Source of the DNA: a virus
Length of the DNA stretch: 30,099 nucleotides
IMG/VR virus record: IMGVR_UViG_3300027911_000048
Span: 1-30,099 of that record
Direction: 5' to 3' (one strand)
The notes under the pieces are model-generated. The model searched no databases, was not told where the DNA came from, and was given only the letters and a program-made list of their open reading frames with translations. Position 1 is the stretch's first letter. Each line of letters begins with the position of its first letter. Made by a program: the position numbers and the translations under genes. Positions 3,581-29,320 of the stretch are shown piece by piece.

Positions 3581-4564
3581 ATGATCGATCAACACGGTCT
3601 CGTCAAATTCGTTCTCAACAATGGTGGAAGCATTCATCCACTAATTCTCCCAGCAAAAGACACAAATGGGACAGGAACATTCAATCCATCAATCTATAAC
3701 GACAATGGTAAGTTGCTAATGAACATTCGTCATTGTCAAGTAACGATCTATCACAGCGAACGAAATAAGTTTGAGCACGAGTGGGGCCCTTTATCATACC
3801 TGAATCCAGAGAATGATATTACCCTAACGACAACAAACTTCTTTTGTGAGCTTGACAGCAACCTAAACATCACAAAGCATACAAAGGTCGACTTCTCAAA
3901 GTTTGATGTTCCACCGTTGTGGGAGTTTAGAGGTCTTGAAGACGGTCGTGTTATCCGTTGGGACGGTAAACTATACCTATGTGGCGTTCGTAGAGACACA
4001 ACAACAAATGGTGTCGGTAGAATGGAATTATCTGAAATTGAAATAACACACAATGCAGTAAAAGAAGTATCACGATACAGAATCCCCACACCAGGAAATA
4101 TCGAAACGTATTGTGAAAAGAATTGGATGCCAATTGTTGATCAACCGTTCCATTATGTTAAGTGGTGTAACCCAACTGAAGTTGTAAAAGTTGATCCAGA
4201 AAACAATGCAACAACTCAAGTATTCCATGGTTCATTTGCTTCAAGAAACTTTGATATTCGTGGTGGATCTCACGTCATTCCAATAGGTGATCACTACGTT
4301 GCTTTGTGTCATGAAAGCCGTTTATTCAAGTCAGAACAGGGAAGAAAGAATGCCGTATATCGTCACCTGTTCGTCGTGTGGGATAAGAACTGGAATGTTG
4401 TACGATACACAGAACCAGTTTCGTTCATGAATACGTGGATTGAGTTTGCAGCGGGAATGTGTGAGTATAAAGGTGATATTCTTATATCATTTGGAATACA
4501 AGACAATGCAGCATTCCTCTTACGAGTGCCAATGAATACATTTACTAAAATTGTGGGGCTATAA
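3581..4564 (+). CDS. GH130-like five-bladed beta-propeller, probable glycan-active enzyme
   Basis: A 327-residue soluble protein. The early FNPSI, then N-I-R and the motif GLEDGR (about residues 118-123) followed by DGKLYLCGVRRDT match the arrangement of GH130-type propellers (mannoside phosphorylases and the related mannosyltransferases), where the equivalent motif is usually GxEDPR. Here the Pro is replaced by Gly. Strand-rich segments ending in short polar turns continue to the C-terminus, as expected for propeller blades. The start is ATG with a GGAT ribosome site shortly upstream. The gene overlaps the next by one base (TAATG), implying translational coupling with the TPR-methyltransferase. 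A role in modifying or cleaving a sugar on host surface or phage components is inference; the GH130-like fold is moderately supported and the exact reaction is unknown. Confidence 0.55.
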   Translation: MIDQHGLVKFVLNNGGSIHPLILPAKDTNGTGTFNPSIYNDNGKLLMNIRHCQVTIYHSERNKFEHEWGPLSYLNPENDITLTTTNFFCELDSNLNITKHTKVDFSKFDVPPLWEFRGLEDGRVIRWDGKLYLCGVRRDTTTNGVGRMELSEIEITHNAVKEVSRYRIPTPGNIETYCEKNWMPIVDQPFHYVKWCNPTEVVKVDPENNATTQVFHGSFASRNFDIRGGSHVIPIGDHYVALCHESRLFKSEQGRKNAVYRHLFVVWDKNWNVVRYTEPVSFMNTWIEFAAGMCEYKGDILISFGIQDNAAFLLRVPMNTFTKIVGL

Positions 4565-5811
4565 TGGAACTAGTCGAAGCACTAAAGCAATACGCATACG
4601 ATACTGACAATCCAGAAACAAATTACACTCTTGCTCGTGCATATGAAGAGATTGGACAGACAGCATCTGCCATCACGTACTTTATGAGAGCGGCAGAACG
4701 AACAACAGACGATAACCTTGCATATGAGTGTTTATTGAAACAAGCGCTTGCTTACGATAAACAAGGAAATAGAAACCATACAGTATTCACCATGTTTAGA
4801 CATGCACTGTGCTTACTACCAAAGCGACCAGAAGCTTGGTTCTTGATCAGTCGACAGCTTGAAAGGAATCGCTCATACGTCGATGCGTATACGTGGGCAC
4901 ACCTTGGATTATCAACTGCTGATCTAAATGCACCTCCACTTCGTTCAAGCGTCGAGTATCCTGGTGAATATGGAATACCATTTGAGAAGGCAGTGTGTGG
5001 TTGGTGGTGGGGTAAAGGAAATGAAGCTCGTAAACTGTTCTCCGACGTTGCTGAAAAGTACGTTGGCAAGATGGACGATGCTCATACACAAGCTGTTCAG
5101 AATAACTTGCTATTCCTTGGTTCAGGACCTGACCATCAATCATTCATTGGATATGATAATTCAAAGCACGACAGATTGAAATTTAAGTTTCCTGGATCTG
5201 ATAAGATCGTTCAAAACTACTCACAAGTATATCAGGACTTGTTTGTTCTTGCAATGCTCGACGGAAAACGAAACGGTAAGTTCCTTGAACTTGGATCGTG
5301 CTTTCCTTGGAGAGGAAATAACACAGCATTGTTGGAAACTCAATTTGACTGGACTGGCGTTGGAATTGAATTTAATGCAGAACGTGCTGCAGATTATTCG
5401 AAGGTTCGCAAGGCAAAAAACATTTGTGCTGATGCGTTGACAGTAAATTACGATAAACTCCTATCAGAGCTAGCACCAGATGGTATTGTTGATTATTTGC
5501 AGATGGATCTTGAGCCACCAAAGATTACATTTGATGCATTGCTATGCATTCCATTTGAAAAGTATAAGTTTGCTGTTATTACATATGAGCACGACTATTA
5601 CATTGATATCAGTAAGTCGTATCGTGATAAGTCAAGACGATATCTTACAGCAATGGGATACGTTCTTGTTGCTGCAAACATTTCACCAAACGACATTTCA
5701 GCATTTGAAGATTGGTGGGTTCATCCAGACCTCGTCAGCAAAGAAACTATCGAAAAATTCAAGTGCGTCGACAAGAATGTCAATAAAATTGAAGACTATA
5801 TGTTGGAATAA
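4564..5811 (+). CDS. TPR-repeat / FkbM-type methyltransferase fusion
   Basis: A 415-residue two-part protein. Residues 1-120 are helical tetratricopeptide-like repeats (for example NYTLARAYEEIGQTASAITYF, about 20-40). A linker with a Trp-rich patch (GWWWGKG, about 146-152) follows. The second half carries a SAM-dependent methyltransferase of FkbM type: SQVYQDLFVLAML at about 220-232, SAM-binding motif I FLELGS at 240-245 and GVGIEFN at 265-271, then a QMDLEPP segment typical of the post-motif region. FkbM enzymes O-methylate sugars or small molecules; TPR-FkbM and TPR-glycosyltransferase fusions are common in T4-like marine phages. Coupling with the propeller gene suggests a joint glycan-modification function. 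Domain calls are good; the substrate is unknown. Confidence 0.7.
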   Translation: MELVEALKQYAYDTDNPETNYTLARAYEEIGQTASAITYFMRAAERTTDDNLAYECLLKQALAYDKQGNRNHTVFTMFRHALCLLPKRPEAWFLISRQLERNRSYVDAYTWAHLGLSTADLNAPPLRSSVEYPGEYGIPFEKAVCGWWWGKGNEARKLFSDVAEKYVGKMDDAHTQAVQNNLLFLGSGPDHQSFIGYDNSKHDRLKFKFPGSDKIVQNYSQVYQDLFVLAMLDGKRNGKFLELGSCFPWRGNNTALLETQFDWTGVGIEFNAERAADYSKVRKAKNICADALTVNYDKLLSELAPDGIVDYLQMDLEPPKITFDALLCIPFEKYKFAVITYEHDYYIDISKSYRDKSRRYLTAMGYVLVAANISPNDISAFEDWWVHPDLVSKETIEKFKCVDKNVNKIEDYMLE

Positions 5812-5847: not shown

Positions 5848-5866
5848 TATTGCGATCATATATACT
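5837..5866 (+). promoter_or_regulatory. Weak candidate sigma70 promoter
   Basis: TTGTGT at 5837-5842, an 18-base spacer and TATACT at 5861-5866. The -10 is good but the -35 matches only about half the consensus. It would serve the homing endonuclease and possibly gene 32. It overlaps the hairpin above. Confidence 0.3.
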
Positions 5867-5894: not shown

Positions 5895-5927
5895 AAGCTG
5901 AGAAGCAGCTTCAAGTGAATTTTTCAC
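5895..5927 (+). other. Two adjacent small stem-loops in the leader of the GIY-YIG gene
   Basis: AAGCTG (5895-5900) and CAGCTT (5906-5911) form a perfect 6-bp stem with a 5-base loop. GTGAA (5915-5919) and TTCAC (5923-5927) form a second 5-bp stem with a TTT loop. They lie in the 153-base gap upstream of the endonuclease. No U tract follows, so they are not obvious terminators; they may shape the 5' leader RNA. Confidence 0.4.
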
Positions 5928-5934
5928 CTTCTTA

Positions 5935-6625
5935 CAATTAGATAAAACAAGACAATTAGATATTATGGATAAAGAATTCTACTGCTACGTGTACGTTGAT
6001 ACAAAGAACAACAAAGTTCGTTATGTAGGCAAAGGTTTCGGTGTTAGAGCCTGGAAACATAAGTCAACGGGAACGCACAACAAAAAACTCCACAATACCA
6101 TTGTAAAACGTATCAACGAAGGATACGTGATGGAGCCGTTTATCATTCCAGCTGTTGATGAACAACACGCACATCAGATTGAACAATATCTAATAAAACT
6201 TTTCGGTCGCGAAGACCAACAAGCTGGTCCTCTATTCAACCTAACGGATGGTGGTGAAGGTGTAACAGGACTAAAGCATTCTGACGAACAACGACGTAAG
6301 ATGTCAGAGCGTCGTCAAGGTAAGAAGGCATCAGAAGTAACAAAACAAAAGTTATCAAGTATTCTACGAGGTGCTCCTGGAAGGCGACGAGGAAAAAGCT
6401 GGACAGCTGAACAAAGAGAAACACTAAGCAAAGCACATCGCGGTAAGAAATATACTCCACGTACTAAACCAATGAGTGGTGAACGTCGTGATAGTATATC
6501 TGCTCAAATGAAAAGAATTTGGGCAGAACGTAAGGCAGCAAAGCAACAAGTAGTAGAAGTAGACATTTGCAAATAGTTTGCAGATAATAGATAGGCAATT
6601 AGATAATTTAGACAACTTAGACAAT
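5935..6625 (+). repeat. A/T-rich direct repeats bracketing the homing endonuclease and forming the gene 32 leader
   Basis: CAATTAGATAA occurs at 5935-5945 and again at 6596-6606, and CAATTAGATA at 5953-5962. The gene 32 side continues with TTAGACAAC and TTAGACAATC just before the ribosome site. The endonuclease gene therefore lies between two similar leader sequences. In T4 the unstructured A/U-rich leader of gene 32 is the site where gp32 represses its own translation, so these units are candidates for an equivalent operator. Confidence 0.6.
5965..6576 (+). CDS. GIY-YIG homing endonuclease with NUMOD3 DNA-binding repeats
   Basis: A 203-residue protein. The nuclease domain is at the N-terminus: Y8-V-Y10, then RYVGKG at 19-24, the Arg of GVRAWKH at about 28, a Glu in HQIEQYL at about 73, and an FNLTDGGEG segment. 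From about residue 95 there are repeated basic motifs of the NUMOD3 type (G-x-K-H-S-x-E-x-R-x-K-M-S, then SWTAEQRETLSKAHRGKK) that bind DNA along the homing site. T4-type Seg/Mob nucleases cut related phage genomes lacking the gene and spread by recombinational repair. It is free-standing, not in an intron, directly upstream of gene 32, a known kind of location next to conserved genes. The ATG at 5965 is preceded by repeat copies rather than a clear Shine-Dalgarno, so it may be weakly translated. Confidence 0.88.
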   Translation: MDKEFYCYVYVDTKNNKVRYVGKGFGVRAWKHKSTGTHNKKLHNTIVKRINEGYVMEPFIIPAVDEQHAHQIEQYLIKLFGREDQQAGPLFNLTDGGEGVTGLKHSDEQRRKMSERRQGKKASEVTKQKLSSILRGAPGRRRGKSWTAEQRETLSKAHRGKKYTPRTKPMSGERRDSISAQMKRIWAERKAAKQQVVEVDICK

Positions 6626-6641
6626 CAAAGGAGATAATGTC

Positions 6642-7589
6642 ATGGCTAAAACACTCGCGGAGCTCAAAGCCGCATACGCATCAAAAGATTCATCCAACAC
6701 AGAACGCTCATCAAACGGTTACTACCCATTTTGGAATATGAAGGTCGGCGAAAGCTGCACAATTCGTTTCCTAGCCGATAAGAACGACGAAAACCCACTA
6801 GGCTTCCTCAAAGAAAAGTTGATGCACAATCTCGAGATCAACGGCGAGAAGAAGACTGTTCCTTGCTTGAAGACATACGGCGAAAACTGCCCAATCTGCA
6901 AGACATCAGCAGATTTCTACAAAGTAGAGGGCGACGATAGTCCAAACGGCAAGAAGTACTGGCGTAAGAAGCAGTACATCGCTCAAGCACTTGTTCTAAA
7001 GGATCCACTTCCAGCAGACAAGGACAGCGGTGAGACACACGTCGGTAAGGTTCGTTTCATCAATTTGTCATTCCAAATTTATAATGTAATTATGGAAGCA
7101 TTCAAGGGCGACGAGCTCGAGGAAATTCCAAGTGCAGTTGAAGGTGGATATGACTTCATCATCAAGAAGACACAACAAGGCAAGTACGACTCATATACTG
7201 TCGGCACGAAGTTCTCAAAGCAACGTGACTTGACAGACGAAGAGATCGAAGTTGCTAATGAGAACAGTGTTGATCTTGAAACGCTACTCCCACGCAACCC
7301 AGGTTTTGAAAAGGTTCAGGCTATGCTCGACGCAGCATTGACTGGTGGTACATATTCAGAGTCAAAGGGAACGTCCGATGACGAAGAAGAAGCACCAAAG
7401 CCAAAGGCAAAGCCAGCAGCTGCTAAGAAGCCAGTTGTCGAAGACGAAGAGGAAGAAGATGTTCCAGTCGCCAAGACACCAGCCAAGAAGCCAGCTCCTC
7501 CAAAGGTTGAAGAAGAGACCTCCGAAGGCGATACTGATGTCGATGACATGCTCGCAACAATCCGTGCACGTCGTAAGGCAGCTCAGTAA
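6642..7589 (+). CDS. 32: Single-stranded DNA-binding protein, gp32 family
   Basis: A 315-residue protein close in size to T4 gp32. The N-terminus (AELKAAY) is the helical, basic cooperativity region. The core has the gp32 zinc site: H62, C75, C83 and C86 (TYGENCPIC), the same His plus three Cys arrangement as T4. KKQYIAQALVLKDP at about 107-120 matches the DNA-binding core. The C-terminal 80 residues are acidic with Lys/Ala/Pro repeats, the expected protein-docking tail for UvsX/UvsY and the replisome. It coats ssDNA in replication and recombination. The start is supported by a strong AAAGGAG site seven bases upstream. The A/T-rich repeated leader suggests translational self-regulation, and a terminator follows the gene. 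Confidence 0.95.
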   Translation: MAKTLAELKAAYASKDSSNTERSSNGYYPFWNMKVGESCTIRFLADKNDENPLGFLKEKLMHNLEINGEKKTVPCLKTYGENCPICKTSADFYKVEGDDSPNGKKYWRKKQYIAQALVLKDPLPADKDSGETHVGKVRFINLSFQIYNVIMEAFKGDELEEIPSAVEGGYDFIIKKTQQGKYDSYTVGTKFSKQRDLTDEEIEVANENSVDLETLLPRNPGFEKVQAMLDAALTGGTYSESKGTSDDEEEAPKPKAKPAAAKKPVVEDEEEEDVPVAKTPAKKPAPPKVEEETSEGDTDVDDMLATIRARRKAAQ

Positions 7590-7644: not shown

Positions 7645-8772
7645 ATGGCAAAGCTACCAGCATTTCTAAAAACATTCGAGAAGCAACTCGAAGACATTGA
7701 TGGTGTAGGAACATCATCACTACCACCACGTTATTGGTATTCAACAGGAAACTTTGTGTTGAATAAGATTCTTAGTGGTTCATTCTACAAAGGAATCCCA
7801 CAAGGTCGCATCACAAATCTATCAGGTGCTTCTGCAACTGGTAAGAGTTTCCTTGCTGCAAACTTGATTCGTTCAGCTCAACAAGCTGGTGCAATCGTAT
7901 TCGTTATTGATACAGAGAATGCACTTGACGATCAGTTTATGAGGAACATCGGCGTTGATCCAGATCGTGAAGATTACTTCTACGCTGACGTAACAACCAT
8001 TGAGCAAGTGACAGCAGTTGTTTCAAAGTTCTTGAAGGGATACAAAGCTGAGTACGGTTCTGCTGTAGATGCACCACAAGTCCTGATCGTTATCGACAGT
8101 CTTGATATGTTGATGACACCAACAGAACTTGAGCACTATGACAAGGGAATCCAAAAGGGTGATCAAGGACAACGTAATAAGCAACTGAAGGCAATGCTTC
8201 GTACATTCGTTCAAGATATCAAGAGCTTGAACGTTGCGATGGTTGTTACATCACAAGTGTACAAGAACCAAGACGTGTTGAACGGCGAAGGTCTTTGGAT
8301 TGTAAGCGATGCTGTCAAGTATAGTGCATCACAAATCGCTCTGTTGACAAAGCTGAAATTGAAGGATAAGTCAGAAGGGAAGAGTGAAGTTGTTGGCGTC
8401 CGTATTACAGCAGAAGGATACAAGACACGATTCACAAAGCCATTCCAAAAAGTTATCATTGAAGTTCCATATGAGTCAGGTATGGATCCATATTCAGGAT
8501 TGCTTGAAACAGGACTTGCAATGGGACTCGTTGAGAAGAAGGGAAGTTGGTATACACTGACAGGTCAAGAAGATAAGTGGCGTGCAAGCGACATTGCGTC
8601 CGTTGCAGAAACAATTCTTCTTGGCGGCGAAGCACAAAGCCAGACGTTCCTTTCAGTAACACAAGCAGCAGATGCAGAAGTTGAAGTTGATACCGATGCA
8701 GAAGAGACGACAGCAGATGCAACTGCCCGTCGCAAGGCTAAGGCAGCAAAGACGAAAGTAGCAAAGCGTTGA
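7645..8772 (+). CDS. uvsX: RecA-like recombinase UvsX
   Basis: A 375-residue protein, near the T4 UvsX length. Walker A is GASATGKS at 61-68; the IDTENAL segment at about 88-94 carries the catalytic Glu region; Walker B is VLIVIDSLD ending at about 154; MVVTSQVYKN at about 200 is the allosteric Gln switch plus L2-side motif typical of RecA/UvsX. The C-terminus is acidic then Lys/Ala-rich. UvsX forms filaments on ssDNA with UvsY help and drives strand invasion for recombination-dependent replication. The start is ATG with TTCGGAG upstream. The stop codon overlaps the -35 box of the next promoter, and a hairpin terminator lies just beyond. Confidence 0.95.
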   Translation: MAKLPAFLKTFEKQLEDIDGVGTSSLPPRYWYSTGNFVLNKILSGSFYKGIPQGRITNLSGASATGKSFLAANLIRSAQQAGAIVFVIDTENALDDQFMRNIGVDPDREDYFYADVTTIEQVTAVVSKFLKGYKAEYGSAVDAPQVLIVIDSLDMLMTPTELEHYDKGIQKGDQGQRNKQLKAMLRTFVQDIKSLNVAMVVTSQVYKNQDVLNGEGLWIVSDAVKYSASQIALLTKLKLKDKSEGKSEVVGVRITAEGYKTRFTKPFQKVIIEVPYESGMDPYSGLLETGLAMGLVEKKGSWYTLTGQEDKWRASDIASVAETILLGGEAQSQTFLSVTQAADAEVEVDTDAEETTADATARRKAKAAKTKVAKR

Positions 8773-8829: not shown

Positions 8830-9888
8830 ATGAAGCCAAAGACAGCTAAAGAACTAATGACGGAGAACTTGCTAGTCAAACACTATGCAGGTTCTCACGC
8901 CTATGGGACATCGACCCCTACGTCAGATGTTGACTTTCGTGGAATATTTGTAGCCGATCCGATCAATGTTCGTACTCCGTTCTATCGTATAGACGAAACC
9001 ACTGACACATCGGAAGAGGACACAAAGTTCTACGAGCTATCAAACTTTATGAAGCTTGCTCTTGACTGCAATCCAAACGTAATAGAAACGCTGTGGGTTG
9101 ACGAGAAAGATATTGTTCATCAGACAGAAGGATACAAGCTACTTCGTGAAGCTCGTGAAAAGCTATTGAGTCGTAAAGTTGTCTTTACGTTCTCTGGCTA
9201 TGCTATGAGTCAGTTGAAGCGTATACGTGGTCATAACAAATGGATAAACAATCCACAGGAATTTACTCCACCACGTCAAATAGACTTCGTGTCGCTCGTT
9301 CACAACTTTACGAAAGCAAAGATATTCAAAGTTGATATGGCTGACTATCGTGTCAACTATCGTCTTGTTCCATTCAGTGGCGACGTATATGGTTTGTATG
9401 AAGCACACGGCTATATGTCATACAGCGACGACTTTACTTTGAACACAGCTTGGGAAGGCGATAGTCACCAACTCGGTGAGCCATTGTTCGTTGTCAAGTT
9501 CAATAAACAAGTGTATCTTGAAGCTAAAGAGAAGTGGGCTCAGTACTGGGAATGGAAGAAGAACAGAAATGTAAAACGCTCTGAACTTGAAGAGAAGTTT
9601 GGATACGATACAAAGCACGCAATGCATCTTGTTCGTTTGCTTCGTATGTGTTCAGAAGTCTTGAAAGATGGAGTTGTAAATGTTCGTCGTCCAGATGCAG
9701 AGGAGCTACTTCAGATACGAAATGGGGCTTGGTCATATGAAGACCTCGTTACCTATGCCGAAGGTTTGGATAAATATAATCAAGAGGTGCTATATCCGAA
9801 GAGCAATCTCCCAGCTAAACCAAACTTACATTTGGCAGCTGAGCTAATAATGGACGTTCAGGATCTAACATGGCTACACCCAAAATAA
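8830..9888 (+). CDS. RlaP-type nucleotidyltransferase (Pol beta superfamily)
   Basis: A 352-residue protein. The N-terminal signature GSHAYGTSTPTSDVDFRG (residues 21-38) is the nucleotidyltransferase motif, with metal-binding D33 and D35, in the form typical of the RlaP/YcgL-like family that bacteria place beside RNA-ligase repair genes. The ENLLVKHYAGSH lead-in and ANFMK-like segment (ELSNFMKLALDCNPNVIE, about 74-91) also fit. The family is predicted to add nucleotides or act in RNA repair; a biochemical role is not established. Here it has its own near-consensus promoter, which suggests early expression by host polymerase. It overlaps the next gene by 19 bases. Countering host nuclease damage to tRNA is a plausible but unproven role. 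Confidence 0.8.
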   Translation: MKPKTAKELMTENLLVKHYAGSHAYGTSTPTSDVDFRGIFVADPINVRTPFYRIDETTDTSEEDTKFYELSNFMKLALDCNPNVIETLWVDEKDIVHQTEGYKLLREAREKLLSRKVVFTFSGYAMSQLKRIRGHNKWINNPQEFTPPRQIDFVSLVHNFTKAKIFKVDMADYRVNYRLVPFSGDVYGLYEAHGYMSYSDDFTLNTAWEGDSHQLGEPLFVVKFNKQVYLEAKEKWAQYWEWKKNRNVKRSELEEKFGYDTKHAMHLVRLLRMCSEVLKDGVVNVRRPDAEELLQIRNGAWSYEDLVTYAEGLDKYNQEVLYPKSNLPAKPNLHLAAELIMDVQDLTWLHPK

Positions 9889-28708: not shown

Positions 28709-29320
28709 ATGAAGTTCGAAGCTAAACGTCTGCAATATCCACTTGATGCTCTTGAAGCAGCTCTTGCTAAACAAGAAGTTGATATTCACTATAACAAGCA
28801 CACAAAAGCGTACTTCAAGAAGGTCAATGAGCTTGTTGTAGGAACAGCATTTGCAAAAGCCGAATCGCTTGAAGCTATTCTCAAGAGAAAGACGTTGAAT
28901 ATTGACACACCAATATACAATAACGTGGCACAGGCATACAATCATGACTTTTACTGGCAGTGTTTGACGCCGGATAAAACGGAGCAAAGTGAGCAGTTAG
29001 AACAAGCTATCAAGACAGACTTCAAGTCGTTTGATAAGTTCAAAGAAGAAGCAATCGATAAGGGTGTAAAGTTCTTTGGGTCAGGATGGTTGTGGTTAGT
29101 TCAAGAAGGCGATAAACTAAAAATCGTCACTTTACCAAATGCACAGACGCCTGCAACGAATCCAAAGCAAACGCCTCTCCTTGCAATCGATCTGTGGGAA
29201 CATGCATACATTTACGATGAGCAGTACTTTGCTGATCGTAAGAAGTACCTCAACAACATATGGCGAGTCGTAAACTGGGACTTTGTCAGTGAAAACTATA
29301 AGAAAGCGAACTTGGTATGA
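28709..29320 (+). CDS. sodB: Superoxide dismutase, iron-type Fe/Mn family
   Basis: A 203-residue enzyme of normal length without a signal peptide, so cytoplasmic. Metal ligands are in the family positions: H27 (DIHYNKHTKAYF), H78 (AQAYNHDFYW), and D160 and H164 (DLWEHAYIYD). H31 and Y35 form the usual second-shell pair. Q74, just before the second ligand (VAQAYNH), is the placement typical of iron enzymes; manganese enzymes usually have Gly-Gly here and take the Gln from the C-terminal domain. GSGWLWLV at 123-130 also fits. It converts superoxide to oxygen and hydrogen peroxide and may protect the infected cell or phage enzymes from oxidative damage. ATG 28709 has a GGAGAT ribosome site. The next gene is coupled by an ATGA overlap. 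Confidence 0.93.
   Translation: MKFEAKRLQYPLDALEAALAKQEVDIHYNKHTKAYFKKVNELVVGTAFAKAESLEAILKRKTLNIDTPIYNNVAQAYNHDFYWQCLTPDKTEQSEQLEQAIKTDFKSFDKFKEEAIDKGVKFFGSGWLWLVQEGDKLKIVTLPNAQTPATNPKQTPLLAIDLWEHAYIYDEQYFADRKKYLNNIWRVVNWDFVSENYKKANLV

Follow-up and report, generated by a model that had tools for sequence, protein, structure and literature searches.

Gene order and the elements of the leader

The window, that is, the whole stretch of DNA analysed, is a complete virus record of 30,099 bases represented by a single metagenomic contig, the assembly of which may be chimeric. It is a part of the genome of a T4-like phage relative and comprises, in this order, a TPR-containing gene (4564–5811), a GIY-YIG homing endonuclease gene (5965–6576), a gene coding for a gp32-type single-stranded DNA-binding protein (SSB; 6642–7589), and a gene for a UvsX-type recombinase (7645–8772). 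The gp32 assignment is firm, based on matches to PF08804 (1.6e-13) and phrog_1192 and on the agreement of a family profile with the solved gp32 chains of T4 and RB69 (8gme, 1gpc, 2a1k); the product of this plus-strand gene is the presumed repressor. Right after uvsX lies a gene for an RlaP-type nucleotidyltransferase (8830–9888, plus strand; PF10127), belonging to a Pfam family whose name refers to an RNA repair pathway, and the same strand encodes at 28709–29320 an Fe/Mn superoxide dismutase (PF02777, 3.6e-32; PF00081, 7.8e-20), which is unusual for a phage.

The endonuclease gene, located on the plus strand, is free-standing, 612 nt in size, and codes for 203 amino acids with a NUMOD3 motif and similarity to the homing endonucleases of phrog_314 (4e-18); its match to TIGR01453 falls under the family cut-off. 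In an alignment, residues Y6, Y20-V-G22, R27, E74, and N92 coincide with the catalytic positions of its homologues. The gene is intergenic and not situated in a self-splicing intron, with about 95 nt of non-coding DNA around it up to the pseudoknot described below and gp32, and with no Rfam match. Both this gene and that of gp32 are as described in the original prediction. The endonuclease ATG is not preceded by a clear Shine–Dalgarno (SD) sequence, so its translation may be weak in any case. The stop codon is covered by TTTGCAAATAGTTTGCA (6566–6586), and a hairpin is possible between the endonuclease and the gp32 repeats.

The repeat unit CAATTAGATA is present in the record exactly at positions 5935, 5953, and 6596, all on the plus strand, that is, on both sides of the endonuclease gene, in agreement with the original prediction. 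Two of the copies, 18 nt apart, form the left half of the leader (5935–5964, plus strand), which lies directly upstream of the endonuclease start and is predicted to be unfolded (MFE 0). The right half (6577–6641, plus strand) carries the third copy, and here, also as predicted, the repeats run on to the gp32 ribosome site in the form of a 9-nt tandem array, TTAGATAAT/TTAGACAAC/TTAGACAAT (6599–6625), ending just upstream of the gp32 SD sequence AAAGGAG (6627–6633) and the ATG at 6642. The window has four exact TTAGAYAA sites, all of them within these leaders; their number is unremarkable (2.5 expected over 30 kb), and that of CAATTAGATA is likewise within chance. It is the clustered placement that exceeds chance. 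The TTAGA count is matched by 0.3% of shuffles for the right leader and by 3% for the left one. UUAGA units lie upstream of only two of the ca. 30 open reading frames (ORFs) of the window, those of the endonuclease and gp32, and no TAGA is found at positions −66 to −16 of any other ORF of at least 120 amino acids. A reading of the TAGACA units as a promoter was rejected, the matches being near chance.

Upstream of the left half lies a predicted pseudoknot (5895–5932, plus strand), overlooked in the original prediction, whose stem 1 begins 70 nt 5' of the endonuclease start and 747 nt 5' of gp32. Stem 1 (AAGCTG/CAGCTT, 5895–5911) encloses the loop AGAAG (5901–5905) and is followed by a hairpin predicted by RNA folding (GTGAA-TTT-TTCAC, 5915–5927) and by the 3' strand of stem 2 (CTTCT, 5928–5932), which pairs with the loop. 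The best match of a covariance model (R1) built from 12 relatives with the window excluded is found in the 30-kb window at 5895–5940 (24.4 bits, E 4.8e-4), the next match reaching 12 bits. Taken by itself, the window pseudoknot is not significant against shuffles (9/60), and the folding of its leader as a single sequence is ordinary (z −0.41); no matching family was found in Rfam 15 for the leaders of the window, its relatives, or T4. The prediction of the pseudoknot in the window rests on comparison with relatives. A search for a second pseudoknot, adjoining gp32 in the window, gave weak candidates only.

Pseudoknot leaders of gp32 genes in related phages

In 43 relatives a pseudoknot of this kind starts 68–160 nt upstream of gp32, in an intact leader with no endonuclease in between, and both its stems show compensatory changes across the relatives. 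In 13 leaders of the window's type, 100% of the alignment cells of stem 1 are paired, and its covariation score of 0.733 compares with 0.196 for shuffled and at most 0.173 for slid alignments. As stem 2 was aligned poorly by MAFFT, its covariation was tested by permutation. In a curated set, a perfect Watson–Crick loop partner is present in 36 of 44 leaders, against 4.3 (maximum 12) after partner permutation. A blind test, in which stem 1 was picked by energy alone and the loop partner was sought within 55 nt, gave 24 leaders out of 61 with a strong partner, compared with 6% after downstream regions had been exchanged between leaders; this is the fairer figure, because the curated leaders had been picked for having both stems. 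Position 2 of stem 2 occurs as four pair types (GC, AU, CG, and UA). As a positive control, the finder's top candidate in the T4 leader was the published T4 pseudoknot.

The hairpin between the stems also occurs in many relatives, with a differing sequence, and a second hairpin, of the GTGAAC...GTTCAC type, recurs between the pseudoknot and the ribosome site in the window's pseudoknot group (leaders L001, L012, L016, L018, L027, and L038). Farther upstream, 39 of the 43 relatives carry ATAAATA 11–92 nt 5' of the pseudoknot; in the window the corresponding sequence is ATATATA, with one mismatch. At the place of the relatives' CATAAATAC/ATAAATA box the window has CATATATAC (5857–5865, plus strand), a weak candidate for a late promoter, suggested by position, as such sites are frequent by chance.

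About a third of near relatives have no such pseudoknot. Pseudoknot labels cluster on the gp32 tree (9 changes against a shuffled mean of 17.3), and one group of 13 has 12 members with the window's pseudoknot type; the window itself is placed near this group, without strong support. A pattern scan yielded, among the matches listed, four with gp32 downstream, all of them already known, and others that look like chance; no clear counterpart was found in named jumbo phages (XacN1, RAS14, BF, Muenster, and others).

The repeats, too, characterise these leaders. The density of TTAGA per 50 nt is 0.70 across 61 related gp32 leaders and 0.04 across 155 leaders from other intergenic regions in these loci, which makes the unit about 18 times commoner upstream of gp32 than of other genes, and at least two TAGA are present in 30% of gp32 leaders against 1.3% of other leaders. 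ATTAGA and TTAGAC rank high among the over-represented hexamers of the gp32 leader tails, and the spacing from one TAGA to the next is mostly 9–12 nt (20 cases, with about two expected). From this enrichment and spacing, the repeats are a feature of gp32 leaders in this phage group. The tails are no less folded than shuffles (−1.53 against −1.38 kcal/mol). The repeat varies among relatives, with TTAGATAATA in L008 and TTAGACAAC in L095. The gp32 leader of L008 (about 4925–4990) carries TTAGATAATA five to six times as a near-perfect 10-nt repeat and has no recognisable pseudoknot. A more distant SSB group (L148–L195) has a different, ATAGGCAA-like repeat upstream of the SSB gene, possibly a separate operator of similar kind; in this group the loop-partner test gave a negative result.

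Putative gp32 operator and proposed control of the endonuclease

Autogenous control by gp32 was worked out in T4, T2, and RB69, and a review calls for its study in diverse relatives (PMC3014915). In T4, gp32 nucleates at a pseudoknot and spreads across UUAAA units to the ribosome site; repression requires both the pseudoknot and the UUAAA tail, and its outcome is decided by free gp32, itself governed by how much single-stranded DNA is present (PMC535899). The leader of the window has the layout of these operators (PMC535899, PMC3014915): an H-type pseudoknot on the 5' side, an A/U-rich, repeated, unstructured tail on the 3' side, and the ribosome site of a gp32-family SSB gene. The distance from stem 1 to the start codon is also similar, about 68 nt in T4 gene 32 and 70 nt to the endonuclease in the window. 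The sequence is unrelated to that of the T4, T2, and RB69 operators, with UUAGA(C/U)AA units where those have UUAAA; stem 1 is longer, the two stems are often separated by a hairpin, and the window has a gene lying between its pseudoknot and gp32. Whereas the 43 relatives have the pseudoknot adjoining the initiation region of gene 32, in the window it adjoins the endonuclease cistron.

As originally predicted, the repeats can be assigned to an operator-like leader of gp32, because in relatives the same repeat type precedes gp32 and hardly any other gene, and because a covarying pseudoknot lies upstream, as in T4. The locus probably carries a putative gp32 autogenous translational operator, composed of the pseudoknot and the repeated unstructured tail, with the free-standing GIY-YIG gene inserted 3' of the pseudoknot. 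The anatomy of the interrupted leader is well supported. By analogy with T4 we infer that gp32 would repress the window's leader, and control of the endonuclease by gp32 is plausible. Since the mobile gene sits inside the predicted self-control leader of gp32, it now stands at the place of the controlled gene.

According to the proposed mechanism, gp32 would nucleate on the pseudoknot, then spread over the UUAGA repeats and cover the endonuclease start, so that the endonuclease would be made mainly once single-stranded DNA draws gp32 away. The gp32 start keeps its repeats and strong SD sequence and would have lost the nearby nucleation site, and control of gp32 would probably be looser than in the relatives, or exerted via the remaining repeats. 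Tentatively, then, the mobile endonuclease may have captured the gp32 operator, its synthesis being gated by free gp32, and hence by the amount of single-stranded DNA, and timed to when the recombination machinery by which it is copied is busy, with gp32 control loosened or rewired in return. If true, this would tie expression of the endonuclease to the state of phage DNA replication and recombination.

It is also conceivable, if rather unlikely, that the insertion caused regulatory damage only: the gene would have landed by chance, its translation would be too weak to matter, and gp32 would be rescued by its own promoter or repeats, with no selected control. The endonuclease ATG without an SD sequence is consistent with this, as is a sigma-70-like match (10/12) at the end of the endonuclease gene (6560–6588), which could give gp32 a separate message; in T4, gene 32 promoters are located within segG (PMC2988022). 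However, such promoter matches are at chance level (4 found against 2.5 expected), the catalytic residues of the endonuclease are kept, and its start lies at a T4-like distance from the pseudoknot. It is less likely still that the pseudoknot and repeats act otherwise in late transcripts, in mRNA stability, RNase processing, or ribosome standby, and not in gp32 binding. T4 gene 32 mRNA is indeed cut by RNase E in this region and is unusually stable (PMC3014915), but the two-part layout is the same as that of the tested T4/RB69 operator and, among the matches listed and the loci examined, it is confined to gp32 leaders.

The captured-operator arrangement proposed above can be set beside other phage endonuclease genes. 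As with T4 SegG (PMC2988022), a GIY-YIG gene lies between an upstream gene and gene 32 on the same strand. The window's enzyme, however, has no significant sequence similarity to SegG; an orthologue assignment was rejected, the best local match to T4 SegG being 18.5 bits (E 0.085). Moreover, the T4 pseudoknot adjoins gene 32 and shares sequence with the 3' end of segG, so that the SegG gene is located 5' of the pseudoknot, whereas in the window the endonuclease gene is located 3' of it. Since the T4 pseudoknot stays with gene 32 and the window's enzyme is not recognisably SegG, the layout is a new arrangement of known parts. Translation of the endonuclease is likely limited by leader RNA, as with I-TevI, segB, and Aeh1 mobE (PMC2988022); in these the ribosome site is hidden in a hairpin, whereas in the window control is presumed to be exerted by a phage repressor protein.

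The widespread set of gp32 pseudoknot leaders is apparently undescribed in the literature covered, most subscription papers lying outside it. It offers dozens of natural pseudoknot-operator variants with compensatory changes, and the question of how a sequence-independent SSB selects its own mRNA can therefore be put to a direct test. To these variants the window adds a naturally rearranged leader, in which the pseudoknot is parted from gp32 and handed to a mobile gene, and with which one can readily ask whether pseudoknot action is restricted to nearby sites in cis.

Origin of the split leader

The leader is split into the pseudoknot with two repeats, 5' of the endonuclease, and at least three repeats with the ribosome site, which stay with gp32. 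Without the gene, its halves of 30 and 65 nt would add up to 95 nt, and in relatives of the same pseudoknot type the distance from the pseudoknot to the start codon is 65–115 nt. In the endonuclease-free leaders of L082 and L083, TAGACAA-type units extend from the pseudoknot to the ribosome site. The comparison with endonuclease-less relatives called for by the original prediction thus revealed the repeats in one continuous, intact leader (e.g., L082, L083, L106, and L008). The simplest history suggested by these sequences is insertion into an already repetitive leader, with no duplication. The original prediction had the operator duplicated on insertion; that the two-sided repeats arose in this way, or that the endonuclease brought its own copy of the leader, is highly improbable, since, despite one 10-mer flanking the gene on both sides in three copies, endonuclease-free leaders were repetitive beforehand, the 95-nt gene-less leader is of ordinary length for close types, and a single convincing pseudoknot is present.

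Searches with gp32, UvsX, and the endonuclease as queries, and with exact patterns of the repeats and the pseudoknot, revealed no close endonuclease-free allele, and no other endonuclease gene was found within the leader among ca. 60 near leaders or among the listed matches of the pattern scan. With the nearest gp32 only 59% identical, there was no empty allele to align, and the site of insertion is placed only approximately. The final codons of the endonuclease gene, GTAGTAGAAGTAGACATT, are similar to the leader sequence, a resemblance from which its 3' end may be a recruited leader; the 3' end of segG in T4 has also been suggested to be one (PMC535899).
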